Origin: Candidatus Methylomirabilis sp.
GTDB taxonomy: Bacteria; Methylomirabilota; Methylomirabilia; Methylomirabilales; Methylomirabilaceae
Assembly (NCBI RefSeq): GCF_028716865.1
Contig: NZ_JAQUOY010000001.1
Coordinates: 124,001-188,000 of the forward strand
Reading direction: 5' to 3'
Length of the DNA: 64,000 nt
Positions 14,358-30,089 of the stretch are shown piece after piece. Every line of letters begins with the position of its first letter. Position 1 is the first letter of the stretch. A program made the translations under genes and the position numbers. A model generated the notes under the pieces. It was not told where the DNA came from, ran no database searches, and saw nothing but the letters and a program-made list of their open reading frames with translations.

Positions 14358-14677
14358 GGGCCTAGATTCCGTTTGAGGGTATGTCGGATTCCCTTCTGCT
14401 ACTGGGACATCCAGTTTCTTCCTGGGGCATACGTGTCCCAAATGCCTTTCCTTTAGTTTTCAAGTAGTTACCTTCCTTCTCTGACTTTTCACTGGGACAG
14501 TTCCTCCCACCCTGGTACTGGGGCGCCAGAGCATGCCTTTAGATATCAGCGACCTCCTGGAAAAGGGATCTCATCATTTCAATAAGTTAGGCAACGTGCT
14601 TGGGCAGCAGAGCTTGTAGAATCGTTGGCCCAGGTATTGCTCCTCAAAAAATGAAAAGGCCGTATCGGATGACTATT
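14358..14677. other. Intergenic region with sigma-54-type promoter
   Basis: 320 bases after ftsH. Pyrimidine-rich stretches and repeats of CTGGGAC/ACTGGGACA (near 14383, 14491) could be weak activator sites. The clear element is the -24/-12 sequence at 14625-14641. No gene seen. Confidence 0.5.
14625..14641 (+). promoter_or_regulatory. Sigma-54 (-24/-12) promoter candidate
   Basis: TTGGCCCAGGTATTGCT fits the RpoN consensus with two mismatches in the -24 box, and its GG (14627) and GC (14639) are 12 positions apart. The predicted start is about 14652, upstream of ATG codons at 14669 and 14678. Confidence 0.6.
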
Positions 14678-15121
14678 ATGAGTAACCAGCGAAAAGTTTT
14701 GATCGTTACGCCGGAATTATCGGTTCGGCAGCAGATCCTCAGCCGTGTGTCGGCGAAGGGGTATGAGGCCGTTGCTGCCGAGAGAGGTTATGATGCTCTC
14801 CTCACTGTTGTCGAGCAGAACGTCGGGTTGGTAATTATCGATCTTTCGATCGACGAGTCCGCCGGCGTCAAGACCGTGGAGATCCTCCGAAAGATTCGGC
14901 CTCGCTTACCCCTGGTGGTCGTATCCGGCGACCGGTCGCTCGAAGCGGGTCGCCAGGTTCTCCAGCATGGCGTTTTCTATTATCTGCTCAAGCCTGTTGA
15001 TCTTGAGGAGCTCGACCAGATTATCCGGATTGCTCTTACCTCCAACAGGCAGCAGACTGCAGGAATGGAGCGGCAGGCTCAAGAATGGAGGCCGGCAGGA
15101 GAGAGGGGAGGGGTAGCATGA
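14678..15121 (+). CDS. Degenerate response-regulator receiver domain protein
   Basis: 147 residues from ATG 14678 (in-frame ATGs at 14651 and 14669 are alternatives). A single CheY-like receiver: VLIVTPELSVRQQIL at the start, phosphoacceptor Asp55 in VIIDLSID, Ser in LVVVSGD, and Lys105 in LKPVD. The paired acidic residues that bind Mg2+ (normally DD or ED after strand 1) are replaced by Thr-Pro-Glu, so phosphorylation may be weak or lost. No output domain; a short Gln-rich tail follows. It is the first gene of the pyruvate oxidoreductase operon, overlaps the next start by ATGA, and lies behind the sigma-54-type promoter. Confidence 0.8.
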   Translation: MSNQRKVLIVTPELSVRQQILSRVSAKGYEAVAAERGYDALLTVVEQNVGLVIIDLSIDESAGVKTVEILRKIRPRLPLVVVSGDRSLEAGRQVLQHGVFYYLLKPVDLEELDQIIRIALTSNRQQTAGMERQAQEWRPAGERGGVA

Positions 15122-16237: not shown

Positions 16238-16654
16238 ATGACGCAGCTTTCGGAGATCATGAATCGGACGCTGATCACCGTGGACACGCGCACTTCCCTG
16301 CGCCGGGCTCAACGAATGCTGGATCAGCATCACATCCGCCATCTGTTCGTGATGGACGGCAAGCGTCTGGTTGGGATCGTCACCGATCGCGATCTTCGAA
16401 AGGCCGCCCCCTCCTCGAAGTCGCCTTTGACGACCAGTGAACGCGAGGAGTTCATGGACGAGTTGAAGGTCGTGGAGGTCATGTCGCGGAAGCTGATTAC
16501 GGCCTCCCCTACGACGACTGCGCGGGAGGCAGCAAAGGTAATGGTCCGCGAAAAGATCGGCTGCCTGCCGGTGGTGGATGGCAATACACTGGTTGGGATC
16601 GTGACCGAGACCGATCTGCTCGAGATACTGGTCCGGGGAGAGGAGGCATCATGA
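16238..16654 (+). CDS. CBS-domain pair protein
   Basis: 138 residues, ATG 16238 with GAGGA upstream, 10 bases after the propeller gene. Two CBS motifs: LSEIMNRTLITVD...LVGIVTDRDLRKA (residues 4-59) and VVEVMSRKLITAS...LVGIVTETDLLEIL (about 77-133). The linker KAAPSSKSPLTT resembles that of the CBS-ACT protein at 28.5 kb. The stop overlaps the ATG of the pyruvate oxidoreductase subunit, so the two are translationally coupled. It probably senses adenylate charge and may act on the oxidoreductase; that is inference. Confidence 0.87.
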   Translation: MTQLSEIMNRTLITVDTRTSLRRAQRMLDQHHIRHLFVMDGKRLVGIVTDRDLRKAAPSSKSPLTTSEREEFMDELKVVEVMSRKLITASPTTTAREAAKVMVREKIGCLPVVDGNTLVGIVTETDLLEILVRGEEAS

Positions 16655-18624
16655 CCAGCGAGCGTTTTCGTTTTCCAGGCATCCCGGCCACAGCAGACGG
16701 CTCGGCTGCAGTCGTCTGGGTCGACTCGCATATTACGCAAGGCGCTTGCGCCTATCCGATTACCCCCTCCACCAATATGGGAAGCGGGTACCAAGCGGAG
16801 GTTGCGAACGGCACACGCAACCTTTGGGGCGAGCCGCTCTTCTTTCTCGAGCCTGAGTCGGAGCATAGTTCCGCGTCCGCGTGCGAGGGGTTTGCCTTGG
16901 CTGGTGGGCGGGTCTCGAATTTTACCTCCGGTCAGGGGCTGGTCCTGATGAAGGAGGTCCTCTATACCATCGCCGGGAAGCGGCTCCCGGCGGTCTTTCA
17001 TATCGGTGCTCGCGCCCTGACCTCTCAGGCCTTAAACGTCCACGCGGGTCACGATGACGTAATGGCCGTGGCGGATGTCGGCTGGGGGATGCTCTTCGCG
17101 AAGAATGCTCAGGATGTGGCTGATCTGGCGCTCATCGCCCGCCGCGTTGCCGAGGAGGGGGAGACCCCGTTCATGACGGTCCAGGACGGTTTCCTCACCA
17201 CCCACACGATTGAGAATCTCCTGCTTCCGGAACCGGAGCTGATGAAGGAATTCATCGGCGACCCGCATGCCGGCACGCGCCTGCGCAATCTCATGAATCC
17301 TTTGAAGCCGATCATGAGCGGTGTCGTGCAGAATCAGGACAGTTACATGAAGGGAAAGATTGCTCAGCGGTTCTTCTACGATCGACTGCCGGCGATTGTC
17401 GAGCGGGTGATGGAGCAGTATTACTCCCTGACAGGCCGCCGGTATGGTCCGGTGGAGGCGTACCGGCTGGAGGATGCCGACTATGCCATCGTGGGGATGG
17501 GAGGGCTGGTCGAGACCGCCATGGCCACCGTCGATGATCTCCGAGCCCGCCGCGGCGTTCGGGCCGGCGCGCTGCATGTCACCTGCTTTCGCCCGTTTCC
17601 GGGCCCGCAAATCGTCGAGGCAATGAAGCACCTGAAGGCCATGGCGATCATCGAGCGGATGGACAACCCCACCGCTCAGTCAAACCCTCTCACTGCTGAG
17701 ATTAAGGCGGCGTTCGCCGATGCGCTGACGGGCACTCCGGGGTACCCGACGATTGACAGGATGCCGATCATCTATTCCGGTTCAGCCGGGCTGGGCAGTC
17801 GGGATATCCGTCCCGGTCACTTCGTGGCTGCTATCGAGCATATGCAACGGGACGATGGTGGATCTCGTTACTTTGTTTTGGGGATCAAGCACGACTTGGC
17901 GCTTGCGCCATCAGAGGATCCGAAGATCAAGCCGGCCGGCGCCTTCTCAATGCGCGGCCATTCGGTTGGTGGCTTCGGATCGGTGACGACCAACAAGGTG
18001 ATCGCCACGATTGTGGGCGATCTCTTCGGCTTGAAGGTTCAGGCCTACCCGAAGTACGGTTCCGAGAAGAAGGGCCTGCCTACCACCTACTATCTGACTG
18101 TGGCTAAGGAGCGGATCCGCACCCATTGCGAACTCGCGCAGGTCGATTTCGTGCCTCTCAACGACATCAATGCCTTCAATCTTGGCAACCCGTTGGCCGG
18201 CTTGGCGGAAGAGGGGATGGTCTTTATCCAGACCGACAAGACGACGCCGGAAGAGGTCTGGGCGCGGATCCCTGACTATGCGAAGAGAATCGTCCGGGAG
18301 CGGCATATTCGGGTCCTCGCCCTGGATACCGTAAAGATCGCGCGCGAGGTCGCCAGCTCCGCCGATCTGGAGCAACGGATGCAGGGGATTGTTCTCCTGG
18401 GAATTTTCCTCCGCTGTACACCGTTTCTCCGCGAGCAGCATCTAACTGAGGAGCAGGTCTTCTCGGCGGTCGAGCGGTCATTGCGGAAGTACTTTGGCAA
18501 GCGTGGTGAGCAGGTCGTTCGTGATAATCTGGAGGCGGTGAGACGAGGCTATACCGAGGTCTTCGAACTCCCAATGAAGCTGATGACGGCGGTTGGGGCT
18601 GGTCGCATAGGGTGCTCGTTCTGA
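16651..18624 (+). CDS. 2-oxoacid (pyruvate):ferredoxin oxidoreductase, alpha-gamma fusion subunit
   Basis: 657 residues. Residues 10-230 are the pyrimidine-binding domain (YPITPSTNM, SGQGLVLM, SARAL-type GARALTSQAL). Residues ~270-385 are domain II (VGMGGLVETA...). Residues ~430-630 are the gamma domain (MRGHSVGGFGSVTTNKVIA...). With the 570-residue partner (ferredoxin plus beta) this equals a single-chain PFOR cut in two. It oxidises pyruvate and CoA to acetyl-CoA and CO2 with ferredoxin, a low-potential anaerobic reaction, or runs in reverse for CO2 fixation. Sequence features favour pyruvate, but another 2-oxoacid is possible. A CBS gene sits on each side. Confidence 0.88.
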   Translation: MTSERFRFPGIPATADGSAAVVWVDSHITQGACAYPITPSTNMGSGYQAEVANGTRNLWGEPLFFLEPESEHSSASACEGFALAGGRVSNFTSGQGLVLMKEVLYTIAGKRLPAVFHIGARALTSQALNVHAGHDDVMAVADVGWGMLFAKNAQDVADLALIARRVAEEGETPFMTVQDGFLTTHTIENLLLPEPELMKEFIGDPHAGTRLRNLMNPLKPIMSGVVQNQDSYMKGKIAQRFFYDRLPAIVERVMEQYYSLTGRRYGPVEAYRLEDADYAIVGMGGLVETAMATVDDLRARRGVRAGALHVTCFRPFPGPQIVEAMKHLKAMAIIERMDNPTAQSNPLTAEIKAAFADALTGTPGYPTIDRMPIIYSGSAGLGSRDIRPGHFVAAIEHMQRDDGGSRYFVLGIKHDLALAPSEDPKIKPAGAFSMRGHSVGGFGSVTTNKVIATIVGDLFGLKVQAYPKYGSEKKGLPTTYYLTVAKERIRTHCELAQVDFVPLNDINAFNLGNPLAGLAEEGMVFIQTDKTTPEEVWARIPDYAKRIVRERHIRVLALDTVKIAREVASSADLEQRMQGIVLLGIFLRCTPFLREQHLTEEQVFSAVERSLRKYFGKRGEQVVRDNLEAVRRGYTEVFELPMKLMTAVGAGRIGCSF

Positions 18625-18739: not shown

Positions 18740-19135
18740 ATGGCGGAGGAGCTGGTCAGGGACTGGATGCACCGGGGTGTGATCACGTGTGGACCTGAGA
18801 CGTCTGTCCAGGTAGTAGCCGATACGATGAAAACGCGCGACATCAGCGCCCTGGTGGTGGTGGACGAGGCGGGAGACGCCATCGGCGTCATCTCTCGCAC
18901 CGATCTCGTCAACGCCCGGTTTGTCGAGCCGTATCTCAAGCATTGGCGGGGACTCACCGCCAAGCACCTGATGAGCTGCCCGGTCGTCAGCGTTTCGGAC
19001 GATACGTCGCTTGCTGAGGCTGCGACATGCCTCCGTGACAGGAAGATCCACCGGCTGGTTGTGACCGAGAGGCACGGGACACACGAAAAACCAATCGGCA
19101 TCCTCTCGGTGACCGATCTGGCCGGGAAGTTGTGA
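18740..19135 (+). CDS. CBS-domain pair protein
   Basis: 131 residues; ATG 18740 with AAGGAG upstream, a GTG six bases earlier being less well spaced. Two CBS motifs: VRDWMHRGVITCG...AIGVISRTDLVNA and AKHLMSCPVVSVS...PIGILSVTDLAGK. The stop codon overlaps the GTG of the downstream ferredoxin/beta subunit (GTGA), so the two are translationally coupled. Together with the CBS gene at 16.2 kb, each half of the oxidoreductase has its own CBS protein directly upstream. This arrangement argues for a regulatory or assembly role, but none has been shown here. Confidence 0.87.
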   Translation: MAEELVRDWMHRGVITCGPETSVQVVADTMKTRDISALVVVDEAGDAIGVISRTDLVNARFVEPYLKHWRGLTAKHLMSCPVVSVSDDTSLAEAATCLRDRKIHRLVVTERHGTHEKPIGILSVTDLAGKL

Positions 19136-20844
19136 CTGCACAGAAGAAAGGTTTCGTCATGGCAGATCAAGAGCGAGCATATAACCCTCTGGATGAGGAG
19201 CACGTCGAGCAGGCTGCCGGGACCAAGGCTCGCGGGATTGAGAAGGAGATCCACGAAAGCGCCTTGCCCCCGACCGGGGTTCTGGAGCTTGATCTTGAGC
19301 AGTACGTGGGCGACTTCAACGAGCGGATCATCGGGGCGTACGCGGCCGGGACAGGGGAACAGACACTTCCGGCTGATGTGGGGGTGGCCCGCAGTCTGAT
19401 CCCGCCGGGGACCGGCGCGCTGCGAGACTTCAGTTACATTGCGCCGGAGATTCCGCGGTTCGATCGGGATCGGTGTGTCGGGTGCATGGCCTGCGTCACG
19501 GAGTGTCCGGACACCGCCATCCTGGGAAAAGCCATTCCCAAGTCGCGTCTGGAGGCTGAGCTGAACAGCATCACCGACGACCGGGAGCGGGAGGCAATCC
19601 GGGCCCAGTGGGGCGAGACGAAAAAGTACTATGAGCTTTACGAGAAGAAAGGGGAGGAAGGTGCCCTCTTCGGCATCTTCGTCGATCCGACCAAGTGCAA
19701 GGGGTGCGCCGAGTGCGTCGAGGTCTGCGGGACCCTCGGCTATCATGCCCTCACGATGGTGAAGAAGGACGAGACGACGATCCCACGCTATCGAAACTAT
19801 TTTAACTTCTTCCGACAAGTCGGTGCCACTCCACGCAAGTATATCAATGAGCGGGCGCTCGCGGATATGATGCTCCATGAGGAGGCGGCGCTCCTTTACG
19901 TTGGCGGCGCCGGCTCGTGTATGGGGTGTGGTGAAGCGACGGCGATCCGAATGATGTTGGCCGCGACCGGATTCGTCTATGGCGCGGAAGCAATCGGAAT
20001 CGTAGCGGCGACCGGGTGCAACACGGTCTACGGCTCGACCTATCCGTACAACCCGTTTCTGGTTCCCTGGACCAACTCCCTGTTCGAAAACGCGCCGGCC
20101 ATGGCAATGGGTGTTCGCGCCAAATGGAATCAGCGCGGGTGGCAGGACAAAAAGCTCTGGGTCATCGGGGGGGATGGGGCGATGTACGACATCGGGTTCC
20201 AGTCACTCTCAAGGATGCTGGCCGCCGGGATGGACATTAACGTACTGATCCTGGATACGCAGGTCTACTCCAATACCGGCGGACAGGCCTCCTCGGCGAC
20301 CTATACCGGACAGGACGCAAAGATGGCTACGTTCGGCAAGACGGTGCCAGGCAAGCAGGAGCGGCGGAAAGAGCTGGCGCTTATCGCCATGATGCACCCG
20401 GATACTCTTGTCGCGCAGACTACGGCGGCCCACGTCAACCACTTTTATCGGGCCATCATGGCGGCCAATGAGTACCCGGGGCCGGCCGTAGTCACTGTCT
20501 ACACTACCTGCCAGCCCGAGCACGGCGTAGCGGACGACCGGTCCTCGCATCAGGCGAAGCTGGCGGTCGATTCTCGGGCATTCCCCCTCTTTATGTACGA
20601 CCCACGGAAGGGAGAGAGGATCAAAGAGCGACTCAGCCTGGCAGGTAACCCGGCGATGGGCGAAGACTGGTATAGACTGCCTCACACCGGAGAGGTGATC
20701 GACTTTCTGACGTTCGCCAGGACAGAGGGCCGGTTCGCGAAGCAGTTCGACACGGAAGGCCGTCCGTCTGATATCTTACGCTACACCCAGACCGAGCGAC
20801 TTCAGTACTGGCGGCGCCTGCAAGAGTTGGCCGGAGTGCGATAA
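19132..20844 (+). CDS. Pyruvate:ferredoxin oxidoreductase, ferredoxin-beta fusion subunit
   Basis: 570 residues from the GTG overlapping the CBS stop; ATG 19159 is an alternative. An N-terminal extension of ~110 residues precedes two [4Fe-4S] motifs, CVGCMACVTECP (from Cys115) and CKGCAECVEVCG (from Cys189). The beta domain binds thiamine diphosphate: CMGCGEA (Cys263), GGDGAMYDIGFQ, LDTQVYSNTGGQ. The last motif is typical of pyruvate-type enzymes. It completes the enzyme of the 657-residue subunit. The fusion order (delta then beta) equals the C-terminal half of single-chain PFOR. Confidence 0.9.
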   Translation: MTAQKKGFVMADQERAYNPLDEEHVEQAAGTKARGIEKEIHESALPPTGVLELDLEQYVGDFNERIIGAYAAGTGEQTLPADVGVARSLIPPGTGALRDFSYIAPEIPRFDRDRCVGCMACVTECPDTAILGKAIPKSRLEAELNSITDDREREAIRAQWGETKKYYELYEKKGEEGALFGIFVDPTKCKGCAECVEVCGTLGYHALTMVKKDETTIPRYRNYFNFFRQVGATPRKYINERALADMMLHEEAALLYVGGAGSCMGCGEATAIRMMLAATGFVYGAEAIGIVAATGCNTVYGSTYPYNPFLVPWTNSLFENAPAMAMGVRAKWNQRGWQDKKLWVIGGDGAMYDIGFQSLSRMLAAGMDINVLILDTQVYSNTGGQASSATYTGQDAKMATFGKTVPGKQERRKELALIAMMHPDTLVAQTTAAHVNHFYRAIMAANEYPGPAVVTVYTTCQPEHGVADDRSSHQAKLAVDSRAFPLFMYDPRKGERIKERLSLAGNPAMGEDWYRLPHTGEVIDFLTFARTEGRFAKQFDTEGRPSDILRYTQTERLQYWRRLQELAGVR

Positions 20845-20945
20845 AGACGGATTTATGACTCACTACACTGGGGAACTAGTTGAACACCGCGAAACGGAGA
20901 AACTTCCATTTTCCCGCTGCTGGCGGGTGGCTAAAGGAGGTTTCA

Positions 20946-21452
20946 ATGATTACACTCAAGAAGATTCTTGTGCCGACAGACTTTAGCGAGACCGCGAAGG
21001 TGGCGCTCACGTATGCTCGGGCGCTCGCCTCCACGTACCACGGCTCGGTGCATGTCCTGCACGTGTTGCCGGACGCCTCGGTTCAGCCTTGGGCGTTCGG
21101 GGTCGAGACCGAGACCATGGGGCTTTCAACCTCAGAGCGGTTGAAGCGGTGGGAGCAGAAGGCAAACGAGCAGATGAAGAATCTGCTCTCGGAGACGGAG
21201 CGGAAGCAACTCGATGTGCGATTTGTGACGCAGGTGGGCCATCCGGTCCAACAGATTCTTCAGTACGCCAAAGACCAGGCGGTCGATCTCATCGTGATGG
21301 GGACACACGGTCGAGGTACCCCTGCGCCCACATCGGGCGGGGCGTTCCCATGGAACGTACCAATGGGCAGCGTTGCCGAGCGAGTGGTTCGCCAAGCCCC
21401 GTGTCCGGTCCTCACCGTTCGACATCCGGAGCATGAGTTCGTTACGCCCTAA
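20946..21452 (+). CDS. Universal stress protein (UspA family)
   Basis: 168 residues; ATG 20946 follows a perfect AAAGGAGG. Usp fold: ILVPTDFSETAKVAL at the start, then VDLIVMGTHGRGT and MGSVAERVVRQAPCPVLTV. The ATP-binding loop G-x2-G-x9-G-(S/T) is interrupted by about eight extra residues (PAPTSGGAFPW), so nucleotide binding may differ. Last gene of the pyruvate oxidoreductase block, 101 bases after it, followed by a strong hairpin. Usp proteins promote survival during starvation or low oxygen. Confidence 0.9.
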   Translation: MITLKKILVPTDFSETAKVALTYARALASTYHGSVHVLHVLPDASVQPWAFGVETETMGLSTSERLKRWEQKANEQMKNLLSETERKQLDVRFVTQVGHPVQQILQYAKDQAVDLIVMGTHGRGTPAPTSGGAFPWNVPMGSVAERVVRQAPCPVLTVRHPEHEFVTP

Positions 21453-21476
21453 ACGTTTTCCGTAAAGTGTGGGCGA

Positions 21477-21503
21477 CTGGCGCCGGGCTCTAGCCGGCGC
21501 CAG
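21477..21503 (+). terminator. GC-rich hairpin after usp
   Basis: CTGGCGCCGG-N7-CCGGCGCCAG, 10 bp perfect, 24 bases past the usp stop. No T run, so probably factor-assisted or a 3'-end stabiliser. Confidence 0.55.
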
Positions 21504-21599
21504 TGCAGGGCGGAGCGGGACACCGCGGTCTCCTGCCAGCTTGCCGACGTCGCCGCTTGCTCCGCCCCAGCACCACCGGGCGGGCCGGCGAGAGAATGC

Positions 21600-21791
21600 G
21601 TGCAGTGCGGTGATGAAAAGAGGGTTCTTGCGGGCACTGTGGTCCCGGCCATCGGGATTGCGTTAATAATCGGGATGTGCCTGATGGTCGGCAACCCCAT
21701 ACTGACTCTTCCCGGATTGATTGCCATGGCCGTGGGGCTGGTTCAGCAATCAGAACGATTCGGCTCGACTCCGTGGCATCCAGCGTATTGA
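21600..21791 (+). CDS. Possible small CxxC membrane protein
   Basis: 63 residues from GTG 21600. A short zinc-ribbon-like start (QCGDEK; the open frame continues upstream as ECVQC, giving CxxC) is followed by one or two hydrophobic segments (VVPAIGIALIIGMCLMVG; LTLPGLIAMAVGLV) and a polar tail. No good ribosome binding site is seen and the upstream frame is GC-rich without a clear start, so both start and reality are uncertain. Function unknown. Confidence 0.4.
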   Translation: MQCGDEKRVLAGTVVPAIGIALIIGMCLMVGNPILTLPGLIAMAVGLVQQSERFGSTPWHPAY

Positions 21792-21942
21792 TATGGTATG
21801 CTTACATATATGATGCTGCCTTGTTGTGTGGGAGGATGGCGGGTGAAGGTAATGGATCGACCGATCCAGAGTCGGATAGGTAGGGCCCGGACCACGGTCT
21901 GGGTGGGAAAGAGGTCAGGCGTCAGTGTGCCGAAGGAGAGTT

Positions 21943-23076
21943 ATGTATCCTGTTATTACTGCATTTGATCACTTGGTCTTTGCGGAGGCCCCGAAGCTGA
22001 TCTATTGGGAGTTGACGCGGGCCTGCGACTTGGCCTGCACACATTGCCGTGCTGAAGCTATTGCGTTTCGCGACCCGTTAGAACTCAACACGGATGAGGC
22101 AAGGGCGCTGCTTGCGGAGCTTCGGGCATTCGGGGACCCGCCCCCACAACTGGTTATGACCGGCGGCGATCCATTGAAACGCCCGGATTTCTTTGATCTG
22201 GTGCGACACGGCAGAAGCATTGGGATGCCGGTATCCGTGGCTCCGAGCGGTACCCCGCTGCTCACACCGGACGCGATCGCGGTTTTGGCGGATAATGGCG
22301 TGATGAGTATGTCGCTCAGCATCGACGGCGCGACGGCCATGAGCCACGATCGGTTTCGCGGAGTCACGGGTTGCTTCGATACCACTATGCGTGCCATCCA
22401 GGCTGTCCGGGCAGCTGGGATCCCGCTGCAGATCAACACCCTCGTCACCCCGGAAACCATGACAGAGCTGCCCGGCGTGTTTCGGTTGCTGAAGGACCTG
22501 GGGATCATGCGATGGAGTCTCTTTTATCTGATCGCCACGGGGCGCGGTCGAGTACTGCGCGAGATCAGGCCCAGCGAGGCCGAGGCGTTGCACAACTGGA
22601 TCTACGACATCGTGAAGACGGCCCCATTTGCCATCAAGGCGACAGAGGCGCCGCACTTTCGTCGAGTGGCCTACATGCGGATGCGTCTGGAAGGCCTGGA
22701 CGATGCCGCGATCCGGCAGACGCCTATCGGACGGGGGTTCGGCATCCGCGACGGCAACGGGATCATGTTCATCTCGCACACCGGGGACGTCTATCCGTCC
22801 GGGTTCTTGCCGGTGACGGCGGGAAACGTACGCCGGCAGAGTCCCGTCACGATCTATCGCGATTCGGACATTTTTACGCGTCTTCGCGACGCTGATCAGT
22901 ATGGCGGCAAGTGCGGCATGTGCGAGTTTCGCTGGGTCTGCGGTGGGTCGCGGGCCCGCGCCTTTGCTGAGACCGGCGATCCGAATGGCAGTGATCCGCT
23001 GTGCGCCTACAGGCCGGAGGCTGCGCTGGTAGGGGCGACGGAAGGCGATCGAGGATGGGCGACGGGCGAAGAGTAG
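21943..23076 (+). CDS. Radical SAM/SPASM domain protein
   Basis: 377 residues; ATG 21943 follows AAGGAGAG. The radical SAM motif CDLACTHC (Cys28, Cys32, Cys35) is followed by the SAM-binding GGDP loop. The C-terminal SPASM-type region has CGMCEFRWVCGGSRARAF (Cys324, Cys327, Cys333) for auxiliary iron-sulfur clusters. The sequence is closest to the group related to haem-synthesis enzymes NirJ and AhbC/D, which act on tetrapyrrole side chains; other SPASM proteins modify peptides. Its last 22 bases overlap the start of a small four-cysteine protein, suggesting a functional pair. Substrate unknown. Confidence 0.85.
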   Translation: MYPVITAFDHLVFAEAPKLIYWELTRACDLACTHCRAEAIAFRDPLELNTDEARALLAELRAFGDPPPQLVMTGGDPLKRPDFFDLVRHGRSIGMPVSVAPSGTPLLTPDAIAVLADNGVMSMSLSIDGATAMSHDRFRGVTGCFDTTMRAIQAVRAAGIPLQINTLVTPETMTELPGVFRLLKDLGIMRWSLFYLIATGRGRVLREIRPSEAEALHNWIYDIVKTAPFAIKATEAPHFRRVAYMRMRLEGLDDAAIRQTPIGRGFGIRDGNGIMFISHTGDVYPSGFLPVTAGNVRRQSPVTIYRDSDIFTRLRDADQYGGKCGMCEFRWVCGGSRARAFAETGDPNGSDPLCAYRPEAALVGATEGDRGWATGEE

Positions 23077-23321
23077 GGGAGGATGGCGGGAGCCCAGGGG
23101 GAGGGTTTCATGGGCTCGGAGAGCCGATCTGTCCCTTCTTCGCGAGGGCCGGCACCGACTGGCTCTATCCGGTCACAGGTTATTGTCGAGGTCGGCCGGA
23201 TGGGAAGCTCATGATTCCCAGCGTTGCCGAGTATCGCGATTTCTGTACAACCGAGCGCTATCGATCCTGCCGATACCGCGGCAATGGACAAGCCATTAAG
23301 GTCACAGGACTGGATGGCTGA
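23055..23321 (+). CDS. Small four-cysteine protein, copy A
   Basis: About 88 residues from ATG 23055, overlapping the radical SAM gene by 22 bases; the open frame extends further up, so the start is uncertain. The first ~25 residues are Gly-rich and weakly conserved. The core reads ICPFF...YPVTGYC...PDGKL...AEYRDFCTT...SCRYR, with Cys spacing C-x17-C-x19-C-x7-C. The protein at 25.9 kb has exactly the same spacing and the same GYC, AE(F/Y)R and CTT motifs. Four invariant Cys suggest an Fe-S cluster or zinc site. I do not recognise the family. Confidence 0.7.
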   Translation: MGDGRRVGEDGGSPGGGFHGLGEPICPFFARAGTDWLYPVTGYCRGRPDGKLMIPSVAEYRDFCTTERYRSCRYRGNGQAIKVTGLDG

Positions 23322-23690
23322 GATGACGCCCGGCAGTTTTGCCTTCCGTCCCGGATGGATGTAGGGACATTTGTTGACCTGTATATGGAGTACGCCGGTC
23401 CATCAGGATCAGATCTGCGATTCTCACACGTGAAGCGCATCGACATCTGAGAGGTAAGGTGATGATGCTTCATCAGCGTGACCCTCAACAACGGTCGGCT
23501 CTGATGGCCGTCCGCAAACCCCAATCATTCCCTCAATCGACCTATTTTGGCATTCAGATGCTCTAGCCGATTAGTGGTATCCGGTATAGATTGTGTATAG
23601 AAGGTGCAGCGCGATAGTACCGGGCCGATAGTCTGTATGGCGTTTTAGCAAGGGCGGAAGGTCAGTGATTATAGCCGACAGGAGGGACGA
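23322..23690. other. Intergenic region before a universal stress gene
   Basis: 369 bases. A 31-codon open frame (23355-23450) encodes a plausible but unrecognised peptide (MDVGTFVDLYMEY...) and may be a gene remnant. The rest, including the AT-richer 23560-23600 part, probably contains the promoter of the stress operon; no clear consensus element is seen. Confidence 0.4.
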
Positions 23691-24149
23691 ATGCAGATCT
23701 CACGGATCCTTTTTCCGACCGACTTCTCCCATGATGCCGAACACGCGTTCCAGTATGCGCTGACCCTTGCTCGCCAGTTTGGTGCCGAGCTCTACCTTCT
23801 TCATGTCATCTATTTCCCTCCTCAGACGCCGGAGTACGATATCGGGCAGGTCATCGACGGCCTGGTCAAGAATGCGGAGGATAGCTTGGGCAAGCTGGTC
23901 GAGAGCGTTAAGGAGCCGAACCTGGTCTTCCACCGTGACGTGCAGGTCGGGGTAGAGCACGCCGAGATTACGAAGTATGCCGAGAAAGAAAAGATCGATC
24001 TCATCGTGATGGGGACCCGCGGACGATCCGGGCTGGCACATATCTTTCTTGGAAGTGTCGCCGAACGGGTGGTTCGCCACGCCTCTTGCCCCGTCCTGAC
24101 CGTGAAGCTCCCGGTGACGAAAGGCGCAGAGGCGGCGAAGAGGGGATGA
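23691..24149 (+). CDS. Universal stress protein (UspA family)
   Basis: 152 residues; ATG preceded by AGGAGGG. A textbook single-domain Usp: ILFPTDFSHDAEHAFQYAL, IDLIVMGTRGRSG, and the complete ATP-binding loop GTRGRSGLAHIFLGS followed by VAERVVRHASCPVLTV. The stop overlaps the ATG of the downstream kinase-like gene, so the two are translationally coupled. It heads the 23.7-37 kb stress operon(s). Confidence 0.92.
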   Translation: MQISRILFPTDFSHDAEHAFQYALTLARQFGAELYLLHVIYFPPQTPEYDIGQVIDGLVKNAEDSLGKLVESVKEPNLVFHRDVQVGVEHAEITKYAEKEKIDLIVMGTRGRSGLAHIFLGSVAERVVRHASCPVLTVKLPVTKGAEAAKRG

Positions 24150-25273
24150 GTGAGGTGACGGTGCAGCGCCAGGCGTTGGTCCAGTATCTCGAAGCCGCCC
24201 TCAGTGGCATCGTACAGGTACAGGCCCTTCGGCCGCTCACGGGCGATGAGCCCACCCTTGCCGTAAAGGAGTCCGGATCTCTGCGAGGTCACGACCTGAA
24301 GGCGTTCGGCTATGGCCAGCCGATCCAGATCGACCTGCTCCTGGACGGAATTCCCCGTTCGTATGTTTTCTCCACCATGCGAGGTGGCCGGGGCTTCGGC
24401 CACGACCACATGGCCGATAGGGCGGGCACCTTGATCTGGGCGCATGACGCCTACGGGAAGCTCGCTCGCCACGTCAAGAGCCTTGATGTCGGTTTCTTCA
24501 CGCGCGAGGGGCAGTTACAATCGGCTGGGCGCGCAGAGGAGTACTTCCTCCTCGTAGAGAAGGTCGAGGGGACCGCGTATCGGGTCGATCTCGAACGGAT
24601 TCGGACCGAAGGGAATGTAGCTGTTTCCGACTTCGACCGCGCCAGGGCGCTCTCGGAATATCTGGCGAAGATTCACGCGGTAAAGGGTCAGGATGTCCAG
24701 TTGTACTTCCGTCGGATTCGAGATCTGATTGGCCACGGTGAGGGGATCATGGGGATCCTTGATGGGTACCCAGTCGATTATCCTCTCCTCCCTTCCAAGC
24801 AGCAGTACCTTGTAGAGAGCGGATGCATGGCTTGGCGACACTATCTGAAAGCAAAGGCCAAGCGCCTGAGCATCGTTCACGGCGATTTTCACCCCTGGAA
24901 CATCCTCTTTCGAGAGGGGACTGATTTTACACTGCTCGACCGGAGTCGTGGGGAGTGGGGAGAGCCGGCCGATGATATCGCGGCCCTCAGTATCAATTTC
25001 CTCCTCTTCTCGCTCTTGCGGTCAGGACACATGGAGGGGCCATTCCAGGAGCTGTTTGATCTCTTCTACGGCGAATACCTTGAGCGGACCCACGATCTGG
25101 AACTGAACTCCGTAATACCACTCTTCTATGTCTTCCGGGCCCTTGTCATCGCGAGCCCGCGTTGGTACCCTGACCTTCCGGAGCAGGTACGCGTCAAACT
25201 GTTTCGGTTCGTCCGGGCGATGCTCCGTATCGAGCAGTTCGATCATAAGGATCTCAATCAATACCTGGTGTGA
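24146..25273 (+). CDS. Aminoglycoside-phosphotransferase-fold kinase
   Basis: 375 residues from the ATG overlapping the usp stop. The catalytic loop HGDFHPWNIL (His245, Asp247, Asn252) and the metal-binding LLDRSRGEWGEPADDIA place it in the protein-kinase-like APH/choline kinase superfamily. The usual DFG-type Asp is in LLD. Upstream residues ~50-110 form the N-lobe. Such kinases phosphorylate small hydroxylated molecules or proteins. Here the next gene encodes an APS-kinase-like protein; the two domains occur fused in COG2187/COG0645-type proteins elsewhere (recalled, not checked), suggesting a joint role. Drug resistance is not implied. Confidence 0.75.
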   Translation: MSEVTVQRQALVQYLEAALSGIVQVQALRPLTGDEPTLAVKESGSLRGHDLKAFGYGQPIQIDLLLDGIPRSYVFSTMRGGRGFGHDHMADRAGTLIWAHDAYGKLARHVKSLDVGFFTREGQLQSAGRAEEYFLLVEKVEGTAYRVDLERIRTEGNVAVSDFDRARALSEYLAKIHAVKGQDVQLYFRRIRDLIGHGEGIMGILDGYPVDYPLLPSKQQYLVESGCMAWRHYLKAKAKRLSIVHGDFHPWNILFREGTDFTLLDRSRGEWGEPADDIAALSINFLLFSLLRSGHMEGPFQELFDLFYGEYLERTHDLELNSVIPLFYVFRALVIASPRWYPDLPEQVRVKLFRFVRAMLRIEQFDHKDLNQYLV

Positions 25274-25283
25274 GGAGATCGCG

Positions 25284-25853
25284 GTGGCGTGGGTGGCGTG
25301 GCTCACAGGACTTCCAGGAAGCGGCAAAAGTAGCGTGGGGCGTGAGGTCGCTCGACGCCTGGAGGAACGCGGAATGCGAGTGCGGATGTTGGAGCTCGAT
25401 GAGATTCGCAGCGTAGTGACCCCCTCACCTCGCTATACAGCCGAGGAACGCGAGGTCGTCTATCGTGCTCTTGCCTACATGGCGTGGCTGCTCCACAACG
25501 AGGGGGTGAGCGTGATCATCGATGCGACTGCTCACAAACGACATTTCCGTGATGTCGCCCGTGCGCTGATCCCTGCCTTTGCCGAGATCTTTCTCCGTGC
25601 GTCGCTCCCGGCTTGTCGGGCGCGTGCGGGGGATCGGCATGGCGGCCACGCCCCTGCCGATGTCTATGGGCAAGCGGGCCGCAAGGGATCGACCGTACCG
25701 GGCGTCGATGAGATATACGAGCCGCCGCTTCACCCTGAACTCGTGCTTGATACCGAGGAGCTTCAGGTGACGCAAGCTGCAGATCGGGTGGTAAGGTTTC
25801 TTGAGGCATTTCAGGTTGGCCAGGCGACAGGCTCGTTGAACAGGGGATCGTGA
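25284..25853 (+). CDS. APS-kinase-like P-loop kinase
   Basis: 189 residues from GTG 25284, preceded by GAGGAG. P-loop GLPGSGKSS at residues 9-17, then LELDEIRSVVTPSPRYTAEERE and GVDEIYEPPLHPEL, which correspond to the LDGDxxR, SxxDR and DxYExPxxPE landmarks of CysC. APS kinase makes PAPS from adenylylsulfate, but there is no sulfate-assimilation gene nearby and the substrate-binding region is diverged, so another hydroxyl substrate is equally likely. It lies 10 bases after the APH-like kinase. Confidence 0.75.
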   Translation: MAWVAWLTGLPGSGKSSVGREVARRLEERGMRVRMLELDEIRSVVTPSPRYTAEEREVVYRALAYMAWLLHNEGVSVIIDATAHKRHFRDVARALIPAFAEIFLRASLPACRARAGDRHGGHAPADVYGQAGRKGSTVPGVDEIYEPPLHPELVLDTEELQVTQAADRVVRFLEAFQVGQATGSLNRGS

Positions 25854-25880
25854 GGATTGACTGATCGCGGAGGAAGGGTG

Positions 25881-26153
25881 ATGAGTGCGCCGTCGAACCT
25901 ACGAGTGTTGGATGCTGTTGACGAGCAGGGAGAACGAGGCCGGGCGTGCCCTTACCTGCAACGGGCCACTCAAGTTTTCCGGTATCCCATTGAGGGATAC
26001 TGTTTAGCGCATCCCTATGGAAGACTTCAGGTCGTCACGATTGCGGAGTTTCGCGAGCTCTGCACAACGATAGAACACGTTCAGTGCCAATTGTACCGCA
26101 GTCAGCGAAACCAAGCCCTGATCGAGGCGGATCCGGAACGCGCAGCAGCCTGA
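25881..26153 (+). CDS. Small four-cysteine protein, copy B
   Basis: 90 residues; ATG 25881 follows GGAGGAAGGGTG. Same family as copy A at 23.1 kb: ACPYL...RYPIEGYC...PYGRL...IAEFRELCTT...QCQLYR with identical Cys spacing C-x17-C-x19-C-x7-C. The N-terminal 30 residues are polar and not shared. It lies in the stress operon between the APS-kinase-like and Hsp20 genes, so the two copies sit in different neighbourhoods. Function unknown; metal or cluster binding is the best guess. Confidence 0.75.
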   Translation: MSAPSNLRVLDAVDEQGERGRACPYLQRATQVFRYPIEGYCLAHPYGRLQVVTIAEFRELCTTIEHVQCQLYRSQRNQALIEADPERAAA

Positions 26154-26238
26154 TCTGAAACGGGGTCTCCTCACGCCCTTTCGGAGGGACTGAGCGCTGA
26201 TTGCTGAACGCTATGTTCCAAGGAAAGGAGGAGCGACG

Positions 26239-26682
26239 ATGGCGCTCGTAAAGTGGACACCATTCGGAGACTTAAGTACGTTCAGGCGAGAGATGGACCG
26301 GCTGTTCGATCGGTTTTTGGGCGAGATGCCTCGACTGGACCTGTCCGGGATGGGGTGGACTCCGCATCTGGATGTAACCGAAACCAAAGAATCTCTGGTT
26401 ATCAAGGCCGAGCTTCCCGGTCTGGATGTCAAAGATCTGGACATCAGCATCTCCGGGAATATGCTGACCCTAAAGGGGGAGAAACGGCAGGCGAAAGAGG
26501 AGAAGGACGAGCACCACCACCTTATTGAGCGGTCCTATGGCGCCTTTACCAGGATGGTCGAGCTTCCGGCGCCGGTTGCCGCTGATAAGGTGAAGGCCGC
26601 TTTTAAAAACGGAGTACTGAGCATTACTCTCCCGAAGACAGAGGAGGCAAAGCGGAAGGCGATCTCGATTGAGGTTGAATAA
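26239..26682 (+). CDS. Small heat-shock protein Hsp20
   Basis: 147 residues; AAAGGAGGA upstream of ATG. A short N-terminal arm (WTPFGDLSTFRREMDRLFDRFLGEMP) precedes the alpha-crystallin domain: LDVTETKESLVIKAELPGLDVKDLDI...LTLKGEKRQ, then FTRMVELPAPV and the AFKNGVLSITLPK signature. The tail lacks a clear I-x-I motif, ending AISIEVE. It is an ATP-independent holdase that keeps unfolded proteins soluble in stress. Confidence 0.95.
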   Translation: MALVKWTPFGDLSTFRREMDRLFDRFLGEMPRLDLSGMGWTPHLDVTETKESLVIKAELPGLDVKDLDISISGNMLTLKGEKRQAKEEKDEHHHLIERSYGAFTRMVELPAPVAADKVKAAFKNGVLSITLPKTEEAKRKAISIEVE

Positions 26683-26782
26683 CACGGCGTTCCAAGGTCC
26701 TTGTTCAAGGGTCCACGTTTCAGGTTCTTCGAACCTGGTACCCGACACCTGGAACATGGCACCCCGTTATAGGGAGAGATCG

Positions 26783-27304
26783 ATGAAGACACCCATGGTT
26801 GTACGCAGGCGTTACGACACCGCATCGTCTAAGAAAAGCGTGGGTTCCGAGACCGATTCTTACCTGGCCAGGGGCGCTCTTGGCAAGATGGCGGTATGTC
26901 ACGGGTGCCATGCCATCTCGACGGGGAAGCGATGGTATCAGGATGAGGCGGTCTATGCCAAGCTTCTTAAAGCAGAAACGGTGAGAGAGGTGTTCTGTCC
27001 GGCGTGTGAAAAAATACGCGACGGCTACCCGAGCGGGCAGGTGACGCTCAAGGGCCCATTCCTGGCTGAGCATCGGGATGAGATCCTGCACATCATTACC
27101 AACGAGGAGAAACGGGCCAGAGAGCTCAATCCGCTTCATCGAATCATGAGCCTCAGTGAGGAGAACGGGCAGCTTGAGATTACGACAACCGATGAAAAGC
27201 TGGCCCAGCGGATCGGGCGGGAGCTTCGCAAGGCCTGCGGCGGGACCGTTGCGTACGGCTGGTCACACAATAATAAATTCCTCCGGGTTCAGTGGGAGCG
27301 TTGA
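26783..27304 (+). CDS. Zinc-ribbon protein, BCAM0308-like
   Basis: 173 residues from ATG 26783 (AGGGAGAG upstream). Two CxxC pairs, CHGC (residues ~52-55) and CPAC (~79-82), form a zinc ribbon. After it comes LKGPFLAEHRDEILHIITNEEKRARELNPL and a C-terminal alpha/beta domain (LEITTTDEKLAQRIGRELRKACGG) similar in style to the N-terminal part of archaeal NMD3. It resembles the family named after BCAM0308 of Burkholderia, a gene of the low-oxygen lxa locus (from memory, not checked). It is spaced 11 bases before the MAT gene. A ribosome or RNA role is possible. Confidence 0.65.
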   Translation: MKTPMVVRRRYDTASSKKSVGSETDSYLARGALGKMAVCHGCHAISTGKRWYQDEAVYAKLLKAETVREVFCPACEKIRDGYPSGQVTLKGPFLAEHRDEILHIITNEEKRARELNPLHRIMSLSEENGQLEITTTDEKLAQRIGRELRKACGGTVAYGWSHNNKFLRVQWER

Positions 27305-27315
27305 GGGGCAGACCG

Positions 27316-28521
27316 ATGCCGCCGATTCTTGTTCAGGCATTAGTACACCCGCCTATCGGCGAGCAGCGGATCGAGATTGTCGAGCGGAAAGGGTTGGGTC
27401 ATCCGGACTCGATCTGCGATGCGGTGATGGAGGAGGTGGCGCGGGCCATCAATGCCGAATATCAACAACGCTTCGGCCGGATCCTCCACAACAATATCGA
27501 CAAGGGGCTCCTGGTAGCAGGGCGGGTGCGCAGGCGGCTCGGCGGAGGTCGTGTGCTGCGACCGATGGAGTTGGTGATAGGCGATCGCGCCACCTTCCGC
27601 GTCGGCAGGGTGAGAGTTCCGATCAAGGAGATCGCGGTGGAGGCAGCGAAGGAGTGGTTCCGCAAGTCGCTGCGTCACGTGGACCCGGACCGGCACCTGC
27701 GCTACCGGGTTGTCCTCTCGGAGGGCTCAGACGAGTTGGCCGATATCTTCCGGCGGGAGGGGGTACGGGAAGCGAATGACACCTCAGCGGCCGTCGGCTA
27801 CGCCCCCCTGAGCGAGACCGAACAGATGGTCCTCTGGGTGGAGCGATACCTGAACTCCCCCGGCTTCAAGGCGGCATTTCCTGAAACAGGGGAGGATGTG
27901 AAGGTCATGGGGGTGCGCGCGGATCGGGAACTGAGCCTCACGATCGCCATGCCGCTCCTGTGCGAGGCGATTACGTCTGAAGCGGCCTATTTCCGCAAGA
28001 AGGCGGAGATTACGCAAGCCTTACGTCAGGGACTACTCCCCGTCTCGCCAGGTCTGAACAGCGTGAACGTGGTCGTGAACCCGCTTGATCGAGAGGGTCG
28101 CGGGATGGGTGGCATGTACCTCTCACTGCTCGGGACATCAGCGGAGGATGCCGATTCCGGGCAGGTGGGAAGGGGCAATCGTGTCAATGGGGTAATTCCC
28201 CTGAACCGCCCGGTGAGCGGAGAGGCGGCGGCCGGGAAGAATCCGGTCAGCCACATCGGTAAGATCTACAATGTTCTGTCGCATCGGATGGCCGATCAGA
28301 TCTATCGACAGGTCGATGGGGTGCGCGAGGTCTATGTCTGGCTTGTGGGTCAGATCGGCCACCCGGTCGATCAGCCGTGGGTAGCGGTCCAACTGATCCA
28401 GGCGTCTGATGCGGAGTGTGAGCGGATCAAGCAGGAATGTACGCTGGTGATCGATCAAGAACTGAACCGCTTGGACAATTTTTGTATGGAACTAACCGAG
28501 GGGAAGTATCCGGTTTGTTGA
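27316..28521 (+). CDS. Archaeal-type S-adenosylmethionine synthetase (MAT)
   Basis: 401 residues; ATG 27316. The sequence fits the archaeal methionine adenosyltransferase family (PF01941), not bacterial MetK: ERKGLGHPDSICDAV near the N-terminus, NVVVNPLDREGRGMGG in the middle, and GTSAEDADSGQVGRGNRVNG with GEAAAGKNPVSHIGKIYN toward the C-terminus. The enzyme joins ATP and methionine to make SAM. Its place in the stress operon, next to CBS-domain genes whose products can bind SAM, is notable. A normal MetK may exist elsewhere in the genome. Confidence 0.9.
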   Translation: MPPILVQALVHPPIGEQRIEIVERKGLGHPDSICDAVMEEVARAINAEYQQRFGRILHNNIDKGLLVAGRVRRRLGGGRVLRPMELVIGDRATFRVGRVRVPIKEIAVEAAKEWFRKSLRHVDPDRHLRYRVVLSEGSDELADIFRREGVREANDTSAAVGYAPLSETEQMVLWVERYLNSPGFKAAFPETGEDVKVMGVRADRELSLTIAMPLLCEAITSEAAYFRKKAEITQALRQGLLPVSPGLNSVNVVVNPLDREGRGMGGMYLSLLGTSAEDADSGQVGRGNRVNGVIPLNRPVSGEAAAGKNPVSHIGKIYNVLSHRMADQIYRQVDGVREVYVWLVGQIGHPVDQPWVAVQLIQASDAECERIKQECTLVIDQELNRLDNFCMELTEGKYPVC

Positions 28522-28542: not shown

Positions 28543-29190
28543 ATGCGAGTGAAGGATCGAATGAGGCGCTCACTGGTGAGTGTCGCACAGTCCGATACAC
28601 TGGATCATGCGCTGACAACGTTAAAGCGGTTCAATATCCGCCATCTCCCGGTGGTCAAGGGCGACCATGTGGTGGGGATTGTGTCGGATCGTGACGTGAA
28701 GAAGGCCGCCCCCTCTCCCTTTGACTATCCGACCGCGGAGGAGTTTCGAGCCTTTACATCCGCAGTGAGTATCAAGGAGATCATGACGAAGGAGGTGATT
28801 ACGGTTGCTCCGCTCACCCCCATCGAGGAGGCAGCCAGTCTGATGAGCCAGAAGCGTATCGGCGCGCTGCCGGTCGTCCAGGAGGGAAGGCTGGTCGGAA
28901 TGATTACCGAGACCGATGTCCTTGGTGTCATCACTGAGATGATGGGGGCGACACAGACCGGGTCTCGCATTGAGATCGAGATTCCCGCAAGTCCGGGAAC
29001 ACTCACCGAGGTGATCGGGATCGTCGAAGGGCAGCAGGTGGAGATTGCCAGTCTCGTGACGCTGCCGGCTCGTGAAGGAGCAAGGCGTCTTGTGATCTTG
29101 AGGCTTCGGACCATCAATCCGGATCCCGTCGTCAGAGCGTTGGAGGAGCGCGGCTATCCCCAGGTTGTCGGCGAGTTCGTGCACTCGTAG
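28543..29190 (+). CDS. CBS pair plus ACT domain protein (AcuB-like)
   Basis: 215 residues; AAGGAG upstream. Two CBS motifs (VKDRMRRSLVSVA...VVGIVSDRDVKKA; IKEIMTKEVITVA...LVGMITETDVLGV) are followed from about residue 147 by an ACT-like domain (RIEIEIPASPGTLTEVIGIVEGQQVEIASLV...VILRLRT). This order is that of AcuB-type proteins, proposed to sense nucleotides plus an amino acid or similar small ligand. It comes 21 bases after the archaeal-type MAT gene. Confidence 0.85.
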   Translation: MRVKDRMRRSLVSVAQSDTLDHALTTLKRFNIRHLPVVKGDHVVGIVSDRDVKKAAPSPFDYPTAEEFRAFTSAVSIKEIMTKEVITVAPLTPIEEAASLMSQKRIGALPVVQEGRLVGMITETDVLGVITEMMGATQTGSRIEIEIPASPGTLTEVIGIVEGQQVEIASLVTLPAREGARRLVILRLRTINPDPVVRALEERGYPQVVGEFVHS

Positions 29191-29226: not shown

Positions 29227-29276
29227 TAAGGGGGACCATAGCCAGCGGATATCCGACGGTGGACACGAGTGTCGTC

Positions 29277-30089
29277 ATGCAGAAGATCTTGATGATGGTA
29301 GATGGTTCATTCGCCGCAGAAGCGGGAGCGCGCTACGCCCTCGCCCTCGCCAAGGCCCTTGGTGCGGAACTCGATCTGCTCTTTGTCGCGGGCGACCAAT
29401 CGGCGCCCGCGATGAAACGCGCCGAGGAGTCGCTGCTGCGCCTGCTTCGGCAGGCGCATGCCCTTGGTCTTACCTCGCGAAGCGTGGTAGAGATCGGTGA
29501 TCCGATCCGAGTGATGCGGGACTACGTGGCGCGCGAAGGGATTACACTGGCCATGGCGTCCGTAACCGGACCGGAGGTGGCGCGTCGCCTCCTCCGGGAG
29601 GTCCCCTGCGCCATGCTGTTGGTGCGGGTGGTCCATCCCGGAAAGATGGCGTCACCGCACGAGATTCTGGTTCCGGTCTACGGCGGTGAGTTTGAAGGCG
29701 GTGGCCTCGAGGCGGCGGCCGATCTTCTGGCTCATCTCGGCGAGTTCTGGCATGCCCGCGTCGTTCTCTTCCGGTTGAGGCAGCCGCTGACGCGACTGTT
29801 CAATCGCCCGCGCTTTGGCGAGGAGACACCGGAACAGGCGGAACGCACGCTGCATCCGTTTATCACCGCGCTCGCCCGCCGTGGCCTGGCGCCGGGGACT
29901 CGGGTTTCGTGGGGCGGTCGCCACGGCCCGGGCATCACGGCTGAGGCTGCCGCCAGGCGCCATGATCTCATCTTTTTGGGAACGAAGGGGCCGCAGAGCT
30001 TCCTGCAGTGGCTGCGTCGCGGGACCGTTGACCATCTAGTGCGGAAGAGCCCGTGTGACCTGATGCTCTTCCGTCCCGCCGCGGCCTGA
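29277..30089 (+). CDS. Tandem universal stress protein
   Basis: 270 residues from ATG 29277 (a GTG 18 bases earlier is in frame). Two Usp-like halves: residues 1-125 (KILMMVDGSFAAEAGARYALALAKALGAEL...AMLLVRVVHPG) and 130-270 (EILVPVYGGEFEGG...LIFLGTKGPQSFLQWLRRGTVDHLVRKSPCDLMLFRP). Only the second half keeps a near-complete ATP-binding loop (GTKG...RRGT); the first has VTGPEVARRL instead. It lies 34 bases before the cation ATPase gene. Confidence 0.8.
   Translation: MQKILMMVDGSFAAEAGARYALALAKALGAELDLLFVAGDQSAPAMKRAEESLLRLLRQAHALGLTSRSVVEIGDPIRVMRDYVAREGITLAMASVTGPEVARRLLREVPCAMLLVRVVHPGKMASPHEILVPVYGGEFEGGGLEAAADLLAHLGEFWHARVVLFRLRQPLTRLFNRPRFGEETPEQAERTLHPFITALARRGLAPGTRVSWGGRHGPGITAEAAARRHDLIFLGTKGPQSFLQWLRRGTVDHLVRKSPCDLMLFRPAAA

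Follow-up and report, generated by a model that had tools for sequence, protein, structure and literature searches.

A four-cysteine protein family encoded twice in a candidate low-oxygen/stress island of Candidatus Methylomirabilis and its relation to a neighboring radical SAM/SPASM enzyme

Is a small four-cysteine protein whose gene overlaps that of a radical SAM/SPASM enzyme the substrate or partner of this enzyme, or does it belong to the surrounding locus as a whole? The question is raised by a stretch of 64,000 nucleotides from Candidatus Methylomirabilis sp. (contig NZ_JAQUOY010000001.1, positions 124,001 to 188,000; hereafter the window), in which two related proteins of this kind, copy A and copy B, are encoded. 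For their family the working name 4C is used here, after the four Cys residues. 4C is a real homologous family, so far unnamed in the libraries searched, namely Pfam, NCBIfam, PHROGs and PDB (UniProt, InterPro or eggNOG may have an identifier for it). The explanation that we favor, at a probability of roughly 0.4, is that the four Cys coordinate a metal or cluster and that the protein acts as a small sensor or accessory component of a low-oxygen/stress island, with the metal, the sensing and the partners all putative.

Copy A is encoded on the forward strand at 23055-23321 (88 amino acids; C26, C44, C64 and C72) and copy B, also on the forward strand, at 25881-26153 (90 amino acids). In alignments the Cys spacing of the two was identical, C-x17-C-x19-C-x7-C, the motifs YPxxGYC, PxG(K/R)L, AE(F/Y)R and CTT were present in both, and BLASTP aligned the pair at 40% identity over 58 amino acids (53 bits, E=6e-16). 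No further 4C gene was counted in the genome, and both copies were recovered genome-wide by 4C profiles, which include the two sequences. The start of copy A was placed at ATG 23055, the sole in-frame ATG close 5' of the first Cys; that of copy B is likely ATG 25881, which is common to its orthologues. The radical SAM stop codon lies at 23074-23076, giving an overlap of 22 bases with copy A in a different frame, and copy B is flanked by an APS-kinase-like gene and hsp20. An initial annotation of the window had described the pair, its shared spacing and motifs, the overlap and the flanks of copy B, all of which were recovered here; its title had also called copy A fused to the enzyme gene. Because the frames differ, these are overlapping genes rather than a fused one, and the different frame and the 22-base overlap together rule the fusion out. 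Within the genus, copy B gave ratios of nonsynonymous to synonymous substitution rates (dN/dS) of 0.14-0.23, and the core of copy A compared with genome G003 gave 0.20; purifying selection therefore supports both copies as coding.

Across a wider set of sequences the core of the family can be written C-P-x(9-19)-C-x(16-20)-C-x(6-8)-C-x2-[YF]. The four Cys were retained in 96, 97, 99 and 97%, respectively, of 76 distinct 4C sequences, and Pro after the first Cys in 91%; the spacing between the third and fourth Cys was nearly always 7, and that between the first and second ranged from 10, in short forms from other phyla, up to 20. Sequences missing a Cys were fragments, a stop-interrupted frame, a deletion remnant in G009 (see below), a partial or misaligned match and one diverged copy in G087. 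The loss of Cys in wider homologues that the initial annotation had named as grounds for abandoning the family was thus not found, and its failure to recognize the family agrees with the searches: neither copy matched Pfam, NCBIfam, PHROGs or PDB by sequence or fold, and none of the wider members (22-row alignment) scored above threshold in Pfam or NCBIfam, so that an already known family was rejected as an identity for 4C at the level of profiles. Nor did it fit two familiar kinds of Cys protein. The 17/19/7 spacing is not the CxxCxxCxxxC of 4Fe-4S ferredoxins, and no Fer4 match was obtained; for rubredoxins and zinc ribbons, CxxC was sought in copy A and copy B and is absent, with no Pfam or fold match. 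The profile search that the initial annotation had proposed detected 4C in 41 of 95 Methylomirabilota genomes at the first pass, and broader profiles in 44-45 genomes of the phylum and 10 to 14 of other phyla (sample of 388). These counts put the family in close to half of the Methylomirabilota genomes searched, with a sparse spread through other phyla; no relatives were found on plasmids. Gene calls in the relatives were made in this work with per-locus codon models and checked by tblastn with reference proteins.

The enzyme next to copy A (21943-23076, forward strand, 377 amino acids) matched TIGR04053 at 461 bits (cut-off 395), with heme b synthase AhbD (TIGR04545) second at 327 bits (cut-off 500). 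Its nearest profile relatives are the AhbD and NirJ group and not peptide maturases. It carries the radical SAM CxxxCxxC motif as CDLACTHC and C-terminal SPASM Cys in CGMCEFRWVC, and a search of viral contigs with the protein gave no match. Within the genus, copy B occurs at a conserved place in nearly all genomes, and copy A is intact in two of 15, the window genome and G003, where its orthologue (75% identity over 52 amino acids) neighbors a second TIGR04053 gene. What is left of copy A in G009 is a deletion remnant immediately after the radical SAM stop codon (L068, ~11000-11109), and it lacks the first and fourth Cys. Since copy A has been lost or has decayed in most genomes of the genus and the enzyme stays, the enzyme does not need it.

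Beyond the genus, 11 of ~26 genomes with both a 4C gene and a TIGR04053/AhbD-type gene have the two within ~2 kb on the same strand (G017, G020, G031, G066, G073, G075, G076, G077, G078, G079 and G085, from six genera). A random-position model predicts ~0.003 such cases per genome, which gives P ~2e-11 at genus level for this proximity, a value to be read with the provisos that related genera are not fully independent and that the model ignores operon structure. In another phylum, 4C stands directly 5' of a TIGR04053-type gene in G123 (L221:4057-6709; 472 bits), with an AhbC/NirJ1-like gene on the other side of 4C, and in G389 (L295). Adjacency is by no means general: among 23 genomes sampled from outside the phylum that have a strong TIGR04053 gene, 22 have no 4C neighbor and only G123 has one within 1.5 kb. 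Each gene also occurs without the other, 4C in G028 (completeness 100%; no TIGR04053 at E<=1e-60) and TIGR04053 in G063 (99%) and G039 (100%); the relatives' genomes are in part incomplete, and absence from a draft counts as weak evidence. The obligate co-occurrence with a SPASM enzyme that would mark the precursor of a ribosomally synthesized and post-translationally modified peptide is thus not seen in G028, G063 and G039. As a separate observation, the radical SAM gene near two 4C genes in G017 (L073:3-1947) scored best as AhbD (467 bits, cut-off 500); another radical SAM gene precedes it and a gene for an Fe2+-transport-type protein follows.

The enzyme is one of several recurrent neighbors. 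In five other genera (G072, G076, G084, G085 and G094) the gene for the beta subunit of a pyruvate:ferredoxin oxidoreductase-type enzyme (POR) has a 4C gene immediately 3' of it on the same strand, at a distance of 17-360 bases. A citrate synthase gene follows, likewise on the same strand, 9-52 bases 3' of 4C in G073, G075, G076, G078 and G079, and G076 contains a single run of POR-alpha, CBS, POR-beta, 4C, 4C, citrate synthase and radical SAM genes; 4C is also near POR in G195, from another phylum. Signaling genes recur as well. In G015 and G017, single-domain response-regulator genes lie 53-86 bases 5' and CBS genes 29-65 bases 3' of 4C, and in G003 (contig C12; L070:1991-2794) one open frame behind the second TIGR04053 gene joins a receiver-like domain, identified by hhalign profile-profile comparison (P=2.7e-6), to a 4C domain. 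Outside the phylum, receiver, NtrC or histidine-kinase genes were located within 3 kb of nine of 17 4C loci, whereas two of the 40 control windows drawn from these genomes had two-component genes at all (Fisher P=1e-4). Finally, GcvH-like proteins (PF01597) of G095 and G108 have at the N-terminus a Cys segment with a weak match to the 4C profile (E ~1e-6 to 1e-5). Taken together, the POR, citrate synthase, regulator and GcvH contexts argue that 4C is a mobile accessory domain of signaling and stress loci, not the private part of one enzyme. Two observations are recorded beside these. In many Methylomirabilota genomes, whether 4C is present or not, a citrate synthase gene and a TIGR04053 gene are immediate neighbors on one strand (L174-L176, L180, L181 and L097-L099), often together with POR, CBS and response-regulator genes; and the GcvH-like proteins with 4C-like N-termini are encoded at L222:4917-5759 and L156:6004-6918, the former locus adjoining NtrC and histidine-kinase genes.

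From this gene context we think that 4C acts as a small sensor or accessory component in stress and two-component loci. A metal or Fe-S site is plausible as predicted from the conservation of the Cys, which is no more than suggestive. The gene content of the window (Usp, Hsp20, BCAM0308 family, CBS) suggests a low-oxygen/stress island. On the favored explanation, the four Cys would bind one metal ion or Fe-S cluster, and Methylomirabilota would have incorporated 4C into a low-oxygen/stress island centered on POR, citrate synthase and the TIGR04053 enzyme. As the most likely mechanism, the bound metal or cluster would be lost, oxidized or exchanged, the protein's contact with partners of the receiver, CBS or Usp type would change, and the expression or activity of the POR/citrate-synthase branch would thereby be tuned. 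AlphaFold models of the 4C proteins (mean pLDDT 63 and 72) predict strands and short helices in a domain of ~55 amino acids, with the third Cys ending one helix and the fourth just past the next. Several points weigh against this explanation. The models are only moderately confident, which follows from an alignment of three sequences only, and a fold search with the two of them returned nothing below E=3. CxxC is missing from both copies, and the Cys could have other roles, as disulfides or as ligands of a zinc ion that is only structural. A scan of the window for FNR-like boxes, allowing one mismatch, gave none, a result that is not decisive. The in-frame joining to a receiver-like domain was seen once, in G003, where the receiver-like part was undetected by Pfam or single-sequence BLAST, and at many 4C loci of the groups f5 and f7 no neighbor of the kinds tested lies within 3 kb.

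Other explanations share parts of this evidence. That copy A is the substrate, as a modified peptide, or a dedicated partner of the SPASM enzyme was suggested in the initial annotation, which also proposed the co-occurrence analysis given above. The overlap of the two genes, the neighborhood in six further genera and another phylum (in G123 between AhbC/NirJ1-like and TIGR04053-type genes) and a co-location far over the random-position model speak for it, and adjacency beyond chance was borne out; the specific pairing was not, given the two intact copies of 15 with the enzyme kept, the genomes with either gene alone and the 22 of 23 enzyme-bearing genomes outside the phylum lacking a 4C neighbor. 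Moreover, the enzyme is nearest to heme-pathway AhbD/NirJ rather than peptide maturases, and the Cys lie within a conserved domain with no leader/core layout. We regard this relationship as improbable; as a rejected candidate, the dedicated substrate is weakened specifically by loss in the genus and by the genomes with one gene only. A small Cys protein beside a SPASM gene is not automatically its substrate. Alternatively, 4C could be a small subunit of POR that serves in electron transfer, maturation or protection, for instance for oxygen shielding or repair. Same-strand closeness to POR-beta in five genera, the G076 run with its two 4C genes and the G195 locus are what such a subunit would predict, but the majority of 4C genes are not beside POR, some standing beside NtrC and histidine-kinase genes and some alone, and a ferredoxin-type Cys motif is absent; this role seems to us rather unlikely.

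The remaining alternatives concern what the Cys do. A regulator that binds nucleic acid or protein, with a structural Cys4 zinc site and no sensing role, would account for four near-invariant Cys in a small domain predicted to consist of strands and short helices, and for the regulators nearby; with no CxxC zinc knuckle and no zinc-ribbon family or fold match, we hold it to be unlikely. A metal-free disulfide redox switch would suit the even number of conserved Cys and the stress context, but the proteins are presumably cytosolic, in bacteria living mostly at little oxygen, and the near-fixed C-x7-C between the third and fourth Cys and the Pro after the first look more like a ligand set; we consider the switch improbable. 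The favored accessory or sensor protein can also be narrowed, to a dedicated sensor of redox state or metal that carries a single cluster and links two-component receivers with POR and citrate synthase, the heme-type radical SAM enzyme belonging to the same regulon. So specific a form is quite improbable; if true, carbon entry into the tricarboxylic acid cycle of methane oxidizers and other little-known bacteria would be under a control not described before. If 4C is a metal or Fe-S sensor of whatever kind, it would offer a small and testable component of the way in which methane oxidizers cope with oxygen and redox stress.

The genes around the two copies, all on the forward strand, were assigned as follows. 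Upstream of the enzyme lie a POR alpha/gamma subunit (16651-18624; POR_N, PFOR_II and POR domains), a CBS-type protein between the two POR genes (18740-19135), the POR beta subunit (19159-20844; 4Fe-4S ferredoxin domains) and a universal stress protein (Usp; 20946-21452). Between copy A and copy B are a second Usp (23691-24149), an APH-type phosphotransferase-like protein (24146-25273) and the APS-kinase-like P-loop protein (25284-25853). Copy B is followed by the small heat-shock protein Hsp20 (26239-26682), a BCAM0308-family protein (26669-27304; NF040826 lxa_BCAM0308, 140 bits, cut-off 100) whose true start is probably internal, the match spanning 26846-27301, a methionine adenosyltransferase (27316-28521), a CBS-pair protein (28543-29190; ACT domain in relatives) and a Usp-like protein (29259-30089). 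The last had no NCBIfam match and was named from context as cluster 'Usp2', its place being conserved in the genus. The order POR-alpha, CBS, POR-beta, Usp, radical SAM, (copy A), Usp, APH-like, APS-kinase-like, copy B, Hsp20, BCAM0308 family, AdoMet synthetase, CBS, Usp is conserved in the genus. The island as a whole also includes a response regulator (14669-15121), a Lon/LonB-like protease (34070-36487; best match TIGR00764 at 127 bits, far under the cut-off of 516), a P-type cation ATPase, several CBS proteins and at least two Usp. The interval 23405-23690, which is non-coding and separates copy A from the second Usp, is 75-80% identical in genomes of the genus that lack copy A; it is probably promoter or leader DNA and possibly an RNA element, and an Rfam search of 20800-27400 gave no match.

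Among known systems, the precursor peptides of radical SAM/SPASM maturases (sactipeptides, ranthipeptides and SCIFF) resemble copy A in being small Cys-bearing proteins beside a SPASM enzyme. Unlike them, 4C exists without the enzyme, forms a conserved domain and is joined to GcvH-like and receiver-like domains. The likeness to TIGR04053 and AhbD (TIGR04545) concerns the neighboring enzyme of copy A and not the 4C protein itself, and members of the TIGR04053 family are mostly without the 4C neighbor seen in the window. The GcvH-like proteins of G095 and G108 share with 4C an N-terminal CPFLEE...C...C...C that fits the profile weakly, but differ from copy A and copy B in carrying a GcvH domain. 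The closest counterpart by locus is the low-oxygen-activated (lxa) locus of Burkholderia cenocepacia, BCAM0275-0323, which contains six Usp, a heat-shock protein and BCAM0308 (PMC6127331). No 4C protein is reported in the parts of the lxa literature consulted. Compared by gene content, the window locus is like lxa in its Usp, small heat-shock protein and BCAM0308-family protein, and unlike it in adding POR, the radical SAM enzyme, AdoMet synthetase and the 4C genes.

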